Source: Arenibacter sp. F26102
GTDB lineage: Bacteria; Bacteroidota; Bacteroidia; Flavobacteriales; Flavobacteriaceae
NCBI RefSeq assembly: GCF_023015865.1
Contig: NZ_JALKBC010000009.1
Coordinates: 124,001-188,000 of the forward strand
Direction: 5' to 3'
DNA: 64,000 nt
Shown: piece by piece, positions 29,945 through 32,311 of the stretch
How the letters are laid out: every line of letters begins with the position of its first letter
Position numbering within the stretch: position 1 is the first letter of the stretch
Translations under genes and position numbers: made by a program
Notes under the pieces: model-generated
What the model was told of the DNA's origin: nothing
What the model saw: only the letters and a program-made list of their open reading frames with translations
Databases searched by the model: none

Positions 29945-30616
29945 ATGGGGAAATTATATATAGTACCTACTCCAATAGGTAATTTAGAAGATATTACGTT
30001 ACGCGCTATCAGGGTGCTCAAGGAAGTAGACCTAATTTTGGCAGAGGATACCCGAACAAGTGGCAAATTATTGCATCATTACAATATAGAAACCCCAATG
30101 CAAAGTCACCATATGCACAATGAGCATAAGACGGTAGAGGGTATTGTAAGACGATTGCAAGCTGGGGAGGTCATTGCATTGATATCGGATGCCGGAACCC
30201 CGGCCATATCCGACCCTGGTTTTTTGCTTACCCGTGCCTGTGTGGAAAACAACATTGAGGTAGACTGCCTGCCCGGGGCAACTGCATTTGTCCCTGCATT
30301 GGTAAATAGTGGTCTACCCAACGATAAATTTGTTTTTGAAGGGTTCTTGCCCGTAAAAAAAGGAAGGCAAACTAGACTGACTTTATTGGCCGAGGAACCC
30401 AGGACGATCATAATCTACGAATCCCCACATAAGTTGGTTAAGACCTTGTCCCATTTTGAGACTTATTTTGGATCTGATAGGTTGGTTTCGGTTTCACGGG
30501 AGTTGTCAAAAATGTATGAGGAAACTATAAGGGGCACGGTAAAAGAGGTCTTGCGGCATTATACTGATAATCCGCCCAAGGGTGAGATCGTTATTGTGGT
30601 GTCTGGTAAAAAGTAA
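29945..30616 (+). CDS. rsmI: 16S rRNA (cytidine(1402)-2'-O)-methyltransferase
   Basis: The 223-aa protein starts MGKLYIVPTPIGNLEDITLRAI, the standard RsmI start, which rules out the extension to 29894. It also has AEDTRTSGKLL, ISDAGTPAISDPG and PSGxx-like GATAFVPALVNSGLP. It methylates C1402 in the decoding centre of 16S rRNA. Its TAA shares its last A with the ATG of the next gene. Confidence 0.95.
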   Translation: MGKLYIVPTPIGNLEDITLRAIRVLKEVDLILAEDTRTSGKLLHHYNIETPMQSHHMHNEHKTVEGIVRRLQAGEVIALISDAGTPAISDPGFLLTRACVENNIEVDCLPGATAFVPALVNSGLPNDKFVFEGFLPVKKGRQTRLTLLAEEPRTIIIYESPHKLVKTLSHFETYFGSDRLVSVSRELSKMYEETIRGTVKEVLRHYTDNPPKGEIVIVVSGKK

Positions 30617-31194
30617 TGGAACGATTTTTATCGGAAATAAGAAGTTGCCAAGTATGTAAGGCTTATTTGCCCTTGGGCCCTAGACCCATAGTAGCCGCAC
30701 ACCCCAAGGCCAGGATTATCATTATTGGCCAGGCTCCCGGAACCAAGGTACACGAAACTGGAATTCCTTGGGATGATCTCAGCGGTAGGCAGTTGAGAAA
30801 ATGGCTCAATATTTCAGATCCCGATTTTTATGATGAAAGTAAAGTAGCACTGATGCCAATGGGCTTTTGCTATCCTGGTAGGGGTAAGGGGGGAGACTTG
30901 CCTCCGAGACCGGAATGCGCCCCTTTGTGGCACAATGGATTGCTGGAAAAGATGACTCACTTGGAATTGATTATTCTAATTGGCAACTATGCCCAGAATT
31001 ATTACTTAGGTAAGAGCGCAAAAAGAACCTTGACCGAAACGGTGAAGTGCTATCGGGAGTTTCTACCCAAATATATTCCTCTGCCCCATCCCTCTCCCAG
31101 AAATAGGTTTTGGCAGACAAAAAATCCTTGGTTTCAAACTGAGGTGGTACCGGTATTACAGGATAGGGTTGCCCAGATACTTCAAAATTGGTGA
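30616..31194 (+). CDS. uracil-DNA glycosylase family protein
   Basis: The 192-aa protein has the family motif A variant IIGQAPGTKVHETGIPWDD at about 36-54 and motif B PLPHPSPRNRFW near residue 155. A Cys pair sits in RSCQVCKAYLP at the N-terminus. It resembles the family-4-like/UDG-superfamily proteins acting on uracil in DNA. It overlaps rsmI by one base. Substrate range is not provable here. Confidence 0.85.
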   Translation: MERFLSEIRSCQVCKAYLPLGPRPIVAAHPKARIIIIGQAPGTKVHETGIPWDDLSGRQLRKWLNISDPDFYDESKVALMPMGFCYPGRGKGGDLPPRPECAPLWHNGLLEKMTHLELIILIGNYAQNYYLGKSAKRTLTETVKCYREFLPKYIPLPHPSPRNRFWQTKNPWFQTEVVPVLQDRVAQILQNW

Positions 31195-31329
31195 TCCCAG
31201 ATAATTTATTATTTTAATTACATCCCTACAAAAGGTTCAGTACCCCGTAACAAAAGTATTTCAACCTATAATTGGGAAGTTTGTCTAAAACCTTTTTTAC
31301 GCCACTGCCTTTAAGTTACTTTTGGAGGA

Positions 31330-31400
31330 CCATAGCATAAGTAGGTTAAGTTCATGGTAAGATTTGGGGAAAAAAGGCGGAGCTTAGCTTCGCCTTTTTT
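31330..31400 (+). ncRNA. candidate small RNA, copy 1
   Basis: The 39-nt core (31330-31368) begins CCATAGCATAAGTAGGTTAA and continues to GATTTGGG; its CCAT and ATGG ends can pair around a 20-nt loop. A terminator follows: AAGGCGGAGC (31374-31383) pairs with GCTTCGCCTT (31387-31396), then T to 31400. A TACTTTTG box (31317-31324) lies 5 nt upstream of the core, in the right place for a minus-7 element. It could instead be part of the 3' end of the upstream mRNA. Confidence 0.6.
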
Positions 31401-31534
31401 ATTGCTGAAAATCAGTATTTTAACCAATATTTTGTCACTTTTAACGATAATAGTTGATCATCAATGAAAATAATTATGGATAAAAGGTCATAATTATTTT
31501 TGTTATTTCTCACAATACCAGTATTTTAGTATCG

Positions 31535-31606
31535 CCATAGCATAAGTAGGTTAAGTTTATGGTAAGATTTGGGACGAAAAGGGTGGAGGCTTCTCCACCC
31601 TTTTCT
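31535..31606 (+). ncRNA. candidate small RNA, copy 2
   Basis: The core 31535-31573 matches copy 1 at 38 of 39 positions; here CCATA and TATGG close the loop, a change that keeps pairing. The terminator at 31577-31604 is a perfect 12-bp stem (GGGTGGAG/CTCCACCC with flanking A/T) unrelated in sequence to that of copy 1. Upstream, TTTG (31498-31501) and TATTTTAG (31522-31529) are 20 nt apart, a near-consensus promoter. Confidence 0.62.
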
Positions 31607-31620
31607 ATTTATGAAAACAA

Positions 31621-31658
31621 AAAAGTCCGCTCATTAAAATTTTAATGAGCGGACTTTT
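31621..31658. terminator. 38-nt perfect palindrome, bidirectional terminator
   Basis: The arms AAAAGTCCGCTCATTAAAA and its exact complement meet without a spacer, so the hairpin has an AT loop with T runs on both strands. It would stop sodA transcripts on the minus strand and any read-through from small-RNA copy 2 on the plus strand. Confidence 0.85.
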
Positions 31659-31702: not shown

Positions 31703-32311
31703 TTATTTATTAGCCTTAAAGGAAGCGGCTACTTTATCCCAATTGACTACATTAAAAAATGCATTGATGTAGTCTGGTCTTCTATTCTGATAATTTAGGT
31801 AATAGGCGTGTTCCCATACATCCAAGCCTAAAATTGGAAAACCTTCGCAGCCAGTTCCGGGCATAAGAGGGTTGTCCTGGTTTGGAGTGGAGCATATTTC
31901 CAGTTTTCCGCCTTTATGAACACATAACCAAGCCCATCCAGAGCCAAATCTTGTTGCCGCGGCTTTGGAAAAAGCATCCTTAAAAGATTCGAAAGAACCA
32001 AAAGTGGAATTTATAGCATCTGCAAGATCTCCGGAAGGTTGTCCGCCACCATTTGGGGACATTATCTCCCAAAATAAAGAGTGATTGTAGAAACCTCCTC
32101 CGTTGTTTCTTACAGCAGCATTGGACATGTCTAAATTGGTCAAAATATCCATAATGGATTTTTTTGCCAAATCCGTTCCCTCAATAGCGTTATTTAAATT
32201 GGTAGTGTACCCGTTGTGATGCTTGGTGTGATGTATTTCCATGGTTCTGGCATCAATATGTGGTTCCAAAGCGTCGTACGCATAAGGTAATTTAGGTAAT
32301 TCAAAAGCCAT
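31703..32311 (-). CDS. sodA: superoxide dismutase, Mn/Fe family
   Basis: The 202-aa enzyme has all four metal ligands: His in [10 protein letters not shown] (about 28), His in YNHSLFW (about 77), and Asp and His in [21 protein letters not shown]. Gly in [11 protein letters not shown] and Gln in TPNQDNPLM are the pair typical of manganese enzymes, so I favour MnSOD, though cambialistic activity is possible. No signal peptide is seen, so it is cytosolic. The palindromic terminator lies 45 nt beyond the stop. Confidence 0.95.

Follow-up and report, generated by a model that had tools for sequence, protein, structure and literature searches.

We identified, at positions 31317-31606 of the window (the whole 64,000-nucleotide stretch of Arenibacter sp. 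F26102 DNA analyzed here), two copies of a conserved family of short sequences that we call sRNA1. We judge it probable that they are two genes of a trans-acting small RNA family that works as a multicopy repressor and is counteracted by a dedicated sponge RNA, sRNA2. The family itself, its conservation, its syntenic array, its promoter and terminator anatomy, and its complementarity both to sRNA2 and to the leaders of orthologous S8 subtilase genes are computed results. More broadly, we lean slightly toward a three-layer circuit specific to the Flavobacteriaceae, in which an sRNA array, mRNAs that start with its site, and one or more later-evolved antisense sponges in genera with larger arrays would set the output of a secreted protease and of other surface or secreted products. 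A third RNA is possibly a further sponge in this circuit.

The Flavobacteriaceae form a major part of the communities in the sea, in soil and in fresh water, and some are pathogens of fish (PMC9723704). Their trans-acting sRNAs have received little study, and sRNA1 offers an entry point: about 90% of genera have it, its core hardly varies, Rfam does not list it, its proposed protease target can be tested, and an antisense RNA matches it. No sponge RNA was found described in Bacteroidota in the literature searched; if the proposed role of sRNA2 holds, it would be the first as far as that search shows, and it would illustrate multicopy sRNA dose and antisense counter-dose evolving together.

Two predicted small-RNA units beside sod

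The two units appear as a 61-nt direct repeat (31317-31377 and 31522-31582) with a spacing of 205 nt. As the first-pass annotation of this DNA had reported, 39-nt cores at this spacing share 38 bases: copy A (31330-31368) and copy B (31535-31573) differ only by a C/T change at core position 24. The annotation was also right that the likeness is confined to the core and that each copy has its own terminator, since near-identity stops at the core and the hairpins at 31370-31400 and 31576-31605 diverge in sequence; their arms are 93% and 100% complementary, respectively. Its proposal that the single change preserves a CCAT(A)/(T)ATGG pairing is not simply so, as the MFE fold of copy A leaves position 24 bulged out.

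Promoter-like boxes had been claimed for both copies, and both -7 boxes fit TAnnTTTG, which PMC9723704 reports as the flavobacterial sigma-A consensus at -7. The box of copy A, TACTTTTG (31317-31324, plus strand, as are all sRNA1 features here), matches it and is conserved in 96 middle-subtype copies, and that of copy B, TATTTTAG (31522-31529), has one mismatch. The spacing claimed for copy B was off by one: its TTTG (31499-31502) lies 19 nt upstream of TATTTTAG, not 20. Copy A is also preceded by the half-sites TTTCAAC and TTTGTCTAAAA, about 20 bp apart (31259-31290), which were recognized from its own sequence and from the middle-subtype logo, where positions around -70 and -50 are conserved. 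They are a possible regulator site, with the function inferred.

Given the repeat, the core family and the fold, copy A is predicted to yield an RNA of some 72 nt that begins at the CCAU and runs through the T tract (31330-31401). The predicted transcript of copy B spans 31535-31607 and is supported by the repeat, the fold and 60 last-subtype copies that have U24 and its 3' flank in common. In the MFE structure, sRNA1 has two hairpins in total, one weak and one the terminator: a 28-nt hairpin with a GUAGG pentaloop (31330-31357 in copy A) is followed by the unpaired linker UAAGAUUUGGGG (31358-31369) and then by the terminator, which is placed by its inverted repeat in both copies and by the fold in copy A. 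The equivalent linker of copy B, UAAGAUUUGGGA (31563-31574), is assigned on the same grounds, and both linkers are proposed seeds. Covariation in the 5' hairpin did not rise above shuffles, while the terminator stem is kept across sRNA1 copies as its sequence varies. The first-pass annotation had suggested that a single-stranded loop could pair with mRNA or serve as a protein site; that region is predicted to form the weak hairpin, and the unpaired stretch is the linker after it. The complement of the linker is conserved in S8 leaders and in sRNA2, and the likely mRNA-contacting part of sRNA1 is UAAGAUUUGG (core positions 29-38). The most conserved part of the RNA, UAAGUAGGUUA, is located in the hairpin, not in the linker.

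A superoxide dismutase-like gene (sod, 31703-32311, minus strand), an open reading frame whose name is inferred from its own sequence, follows copy B and serves as a synteny marker rather than as part of the RNA. Between the two lies a perfect, gapless 19-bp inverted repeat (31621-31658), a predicted terminator for sod on the minus strand and possibly for both strands.

The sRNA1 family in the Flavobacteriaceae

With up to three mismatches allowed, the 39-mer is present in 87 of 250 Flavobacteriaceae genomes, compared to none for a reversed control pattern, so chance similarity can be excluded. A covariance search, one of the checks proposed in the first-pass annotation, was run with a model built from 17 core variants on 120 Flavobacteriaceae genomes, one per genus. 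It placed sRNA1 in 108 of the 120 genera, with one to six copies, usually about 200 nt apart on the same strand. The core is near-invariant among the 363 copies, and the -7 box and terminator are conserved along with it. Homologous loci without core conservation would have refuted the annotation's reading of twin small-RNA units; this did not come true, and the reading is supported by the family-wide retention of core, box and terminator, with transcription itself inferred. Judged by sequence and conservation, each unit has what is expected of a base-pairing trans-acting sRNA gene, being short, standing alone and carrying a promoter and a terminator of its own.

The array has a stable genomic place: an amidophosphoribosyltransferase-like gene flanks 132 of 148 loci and sod flanks 115. 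The Arenibacter genome (G000) has four copies, of which the window holds two; the others are on a second contig, at G000:C10:42007 and 42225. Its amidophosphoribosyltransferase-array-sod block is split, with the amidophosphoribosyltransferase side and two copies on C10 and the sod side and two copies in the window. A middle-subtype copy remains on each side of the split (window 30616-31330; G000:C10:41900-42300, locus L009), which would fit a rearrangement that broke the array. The open reading frame now upstream of copy A (30616-31194) matched only one of the 148 array loci.

Strong matches to the model were confined to the Flavobacteriaceae in a class-wide genome sample. Candidate homologues outside the family (24-29 bits, five genomes) were close to the number expected by chance and were rejected. 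No exact match occurred in viral contigs, on which ground a viral origin was set aside, and no dispersed copies were found elsewhere in the Arenibacter genome; two further 26-bit matches there were discarded, one lying inside an ECF-sigma-like open reading frame and the other lacking the loop sequence. Coding from ATGGTAAGATTTGGGG was also dismissed, because 98 of the 363 copies carry a frame-shifting 1-nt deletion and the frame runs into the varying terminator. Comparison with Flavo-1 and other Rfam models had been suggested, and no family of Rfam 15, Flavo-1 included, reached its gathering score in the 64-kb window; the low-threshold list consisted mostly of matches to terminators. The core sequence was not found in the literature searched. 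We conclude that sRNA1 is a new sRNA family, of RNAs of about 72 nt that were not catalogued before.

Subtypes and promoters within the array

Across the 363 copies, core subtypes track position in the array. Copies adjacent to sod (last copies) have U24, GGGACGAAAAGGG and a near-invariant promoter from the TTTG to the -7 box (60 copies); middle copies read TAc.TTTG.AGgA, with a pair of half-sites further upstream that are separated by about 20 bp; and first copies carry GGGGCAAAAAAGG. One A is absent from a large group of genomes, where the sequence is GGTAGATTTGGGG. In the window, copy A is of the middle subtype with C24 and copy B of the last subtype with U24 and GGGACGAAAAGGG, and the C/T change between them is therefore an inherited subtype marker; the alternative at position 24 is a fixed mark of the sod-proximal copy across many genera.

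The promoter of the sod-proximal copy (31499-31529 in the window, comprising TTTG, spacer and TATTTTAG) has a spacer that is near-invariant in the 60 copies and contains the palindrome-like AATACCAGTATT. This pattern suggests a DNA-binding protein, as yet only predicted, whose site would overlap the promoter of this copy alone.

A conserved complement in S8 subtilase leaders

Target prediction against mRNA leaders, also proposed in the first-pass annotation, gave a divided answer. We scanned the leaders of about 1000 genes of the same genome, drawn from roughly a quarter of it (the window, L009 and 60 stretches of 20 kb). Neither exact-complement nor duplex-energy scans of these leaders gave a clear excess beyond that of the CAU triplets of the core against AUG, which may reflect a small regulon or a weak test. 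One leader did stand out: TATATTTG-TAGT-CCAAATCTTACTATAAACTTTATC-ATG, which precedes a 734-aa S8 subtilase with a T9SS sorting tail (L273). It pairs with the U24 subtype over 20 contiguous nucleotides including one G-U, and with the C24 core it forms a duplex of -28.6 kcal/mol (z -6.3). Judging from the position of the -7 box, the mRNA would start at or beside CCAAATC, and the predicted S8 mRNA begins CCAAAUCUUA.

The same element precedes S8 orthologues in other genera. A pattern search of the 120 genomes found TTTGTAGTCCAAATCTTA before orthologues in three more genera, and a protein search over 80 sampled genomes recovered six orthologues, in six of the genomes, at E < 1e-230. CCAAATCTTA is exact in five of these six; in the sixth (G056), CCCAATCTTA stands instead, and after it comes AACCTACTT, which also belongs to the complement. 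A leader model added three orthologues that are 55-59% identical over the first ~400 residues, two with the exact element (G153 and G120) and one with CCAAATCCTA (G108). In total, nine S8 orthologues from nine genera have the element directly after the -7 box, seven of them exactly, and conserved complementarity to target leaders, which is expected of a trans-acting sRNA, is present in this respect. The element was found by searching for the complement. Outside the Arenibacter genome, pairing with S8 leaders beyond 10-13 nt varies. Among the more distant S8 homologues, 22 had a start region that could be read, and a 9-nt match was absent from all of them; G030, one of these, has the near match CCCAAATGTTA.

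Because S8 orthologues at that E-value occurred in only 6 of 80 genomes, S8 cannot explain the presence of sRNA1 in 90% of genera. Other targets must exist, and we have not pinned them down. The complement of core positions 14-34, tried as a 21-nt target, returned only the sRNA copies and one site with three mismatches.

Single-genome cases of leaders with long core complements occur at G075:C14:26839-26867 (L477), G102:C1:1976538-1976567 (L473) and G027:C1:70144-70183 (L336), and in the Arenibacter genome a PorP/SprF gene (L264:11473-12420, minus strand) has a 12-nt exact core complement at -20 to -9. The genes behind such leaders are a response regulator, a small lipoprotein-like gene, a polysaccharide-biosynthesis-like gene and the PorP/SprF gene. 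Near an sRNA1 copy in another genome (L349, region G078:C1:1085700-1086400, up to 1088276) are seven tandem repeats of about 105 bp, each containing (GT/CC)CCAAATCTTAATGGGG, the linker complement. At L462 (G106:C9:29006-29035), CCCAAATCTTA directly follows the stop codon of a gene, precedes a terminator and is a possible 3' UTR decoy.

sRNA2, a predicted antisense RNA

Two matches to the linker-complement pattern were not genes but short units with a promoter and a terminator. A 23-nt pattern derived from them gave 18 sites in 14 of the 120 genomes, compared to four control matches. A few of the 18 are background without the anatomy of the unit; in most, cTTGACAACTA lies at about -45 and is joined by a -7 box, CCCAAATCTTACCAAACTAAACC...TTAATGCT and a terminator rich in GC. 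We call this unit sRNA2. The Arenibacter genome has one copy (G000:C33:217842-217963), and in one genome four copies stand in tandem about 197 nt apart. Strong matches to an sRNA2 model were found in 20 of the 120 genera, the Arenibacter genome included.

With a 2-nt gap, sRNA2 reads antisense to almost all of the sRNA1 core (reverse complement CCCAAATCTTACCATGAACTTAACCTACTTATGCT). Computed hybrids with sRNA1 range from -28 to -38.5 kcal/mol for the copies found by pattern (-29.2 in Arenibacter) and from about -28 to -43 kcal/mol for eight diverged copies found by the model only, compared to -11.8 (sd 3.0) for shuffles. The first ~11 nt of sRNA2 had been selected by the search, and positions 14-36 were hence tested separately: they alone average -14.4 compared to -7.2 for shuffles, a difference whose significance is overstated because the sequences are related. 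Three or four copies (G153, G080, G026, G075) pair little beyond the seed half. All 20 genomes with sRNA2 also have sRNA1, and they have more copies of it (median four, compared to two; Mann-Whitney p 3e-10, not corrected for relatedness).

A sponge should offer extended antisense pairing and be separately encoded, and sRNA2 meets both points; it probably titrates sRNA1 as a dedicated sponge, although the sponging is inferred. sRNA1 is the more widespread of the two (108 and 20 of 120 genera), and sRNA2 is therefore best read as a later antagonist.

Another intergenic unit was noticed in three genera, upstream of a similar gene in each: L465 (G000:C44:291215-291246, minus strand), L466 (G120) and L471 (G056). 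It consists of CCCAAATCTTAYCATT and then a terminator-like hairpin, GGCTGTGCA..., and may encode a further RNA whose sequence complements the sRNA1 linker.

Half-sites at the three promoters

Paired half-sites recur in the promoters of all three elements. S8 promoters (L400-L405, L461, L463, L464) have TTTCATCGA and TTTATCGA 21 bp apart, and most also have TTTCACAACA further upstream. The promoters of first and middle sRNA1 copies have similar half-sites about 20 bp apart (31259-31290 in the window), and the sRNA2 promoter has TTAGCATAC and TTGACAACT 21 bp apart. This spacing recalls LytTR-type direct repeats. If one regulator were to read both the S8 and the sRNA1 promoters, we infer that an incoherent feed-forward loop would result.

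Proposed mechanism and alternatives

In the mechanism that we propose, an upstream regulator would drive expression of sRNA1, and each copy would be transcribed from its own TAnnTTTG promoter, starting at about CCAU. The linker UAAGAUUUGGGG, often extended into a strand of the hairpin, would nucleate pairing at the first bases of a target mRNA; the duplex would then spread into the leader, most likely blocking translation initiation. sRNA2, transcribed from its own promoter, would pair with the linker and then with the whole core, removing sRNA1. Transcription, RNA-RNA pairing in cells, the repressive sign and the sponge action are all inferred.

It is unlikely, though it should be kept in view, that sRNA1 instead mainly binds a protein, as a CsrB-like or 6S-like decoy or as the ligand of an RRM-type protein, by analogy with FopS and RbpB, with tandem copies raising the dose, sRNA2 serving as an antisense inactivator rather than a target mimic, and S8 being incidental. 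Near-invariance extends over the whole 39-nt core, beyond the needs of a 10-nt seed, the most conserved UAAGUAGGUUA is in the hairpin, and S8 orthologues are far rarer than sRNA1, all of which would suit a protein ligand. The linker complement nevertheless starts both sRNA2 and the orthologous S8 leaders of nine genera, and the hairpin pairs lack covariation above shuffles. In another reading, CCAAATCTTA would be an initially transcribed or protein-recognized element that the promoters of S8 and sRNA2 share, and its complementarity to sRNA1 would be secondary or coincidental. The element does stand at a constant distance after the -7 box, and the preceding TTTGTAGT is conserved too, but we find the idea hard to credit when the complementarity between sRNA2 and sRNA1 extends over almost all of the core, beyond CCAAATCTTA, and when CCAAATCTTA is missing from more distant S8 homologues.

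The sign of regulation might be the opposite of the one we prefer, a view that we regard as doubtful: sRNA1 would activate its targets by protecting the 5' end of their mRNA against decay, and this activation would be switched off by sRNA2. Pairing that starts at the predicted mRNA 5' end is compatible with such protection, and the flavobacterial sRNA Rfp18, which looks unrelated to sRNA1, raises protease mRNA levels (PMC9723704); however, with leaders of only ~20-30 nt, the duplex (-24 to -5 in Arenibacter) would cover the ribosome-loading region. Finally, the tandem arrangement of the copies and the different array lengths between genomes could be taken for a non-functional intergenic repeat spreading by duplication. 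This is scarcely tenable for a core that is near-invariant family-wide at one syntenic place, with promoters conserved by subtype, no dispersed copies in its own genome and no exact match in viral contigs. The conservation of core and promoters likewise bears out the first-pass annotation's view of a functional RNA as opposed to a simple duplication.

Relation to known systems

The repressor-and-sponge reading has a counterpart in Vibrio cholerae, where the near-identical sibling sRNAs Qrr1-4 act with Hfq and have a separately encoded sponge, QrrX (PMC9732341). For sRNA1 and sRNA2, the shared traits of near-identical siblings and a separate sponge are inferred from sequence. The systems differ in that the sRNA1 siblings lie in one tandem array, the antisense RNA covers the whole core, and sRNA2 is itself tandem in one genus; Vibrio belongs to another phylum, and no sequence relation is claimed.

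Within Bacteroidota, the closest comparison is with the FopS sRNAs of Bacteroides (Rfam RF04319), a set of 14 paralogues to which RbpB binds (PMC11697453). FopS resembles sRNA1 in being multicopy and short, with a seed, predicted to be unpaired in sRNA1, beside a terminator. In FopS an unpaired 5' region with the R1 seed precedes the terminator hairpin; sRNA1 has the terminator, and a local match, UUCAUGGUA..AGAUUU, links it to the 5' region of FopS (p about 0.002 against shuffles, uncorrected), but this match is suggestive only and lies partly inside the predicted hairpin of sRNA1. Membership was rejected, as copy A scores 17.1 bits compared to a gathering score of 56, and a search of the Arenibacter genome with the FopS model gave matches of 17.6-22.2 bits that did not include sRNA1, none above the cut-off. 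sRNA1 differs by its syntenic tandem array and by a predicted hairpin in place of the open 5' stretch of FopS, and no FopS sponge is reported in the text consulted. A crude motif scan of ~24% of the Arenibacter genome, with the rest uncovered, found no RRM-like open reading frame of the RbpB type.

Other comparisons are looser. Flavo-1 is, like sRNA1, a noncoding element of Flavobacteriaceae, one that remained below its gathering score in the window. LhrC1-5 of Listeria (PMC5880928) and the sibling sRNAs of Neisseria (PMC9973317, PMC5362039) are near-identical families like sRNA1, from other phyla and with no sequence relation claimed. Rfp18 of Flavobacterium psychrophilum is a flavobacterial sRNA tied to secreted proteases, as we propose for sRNA1, and its deletion lowers the mRNAs of two metalloproteases (PMC9723704). 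It has at least three stem-loops and pairs via the third (PMC9723704), whereas sRNA1 has one weak hairpin and a terminator.
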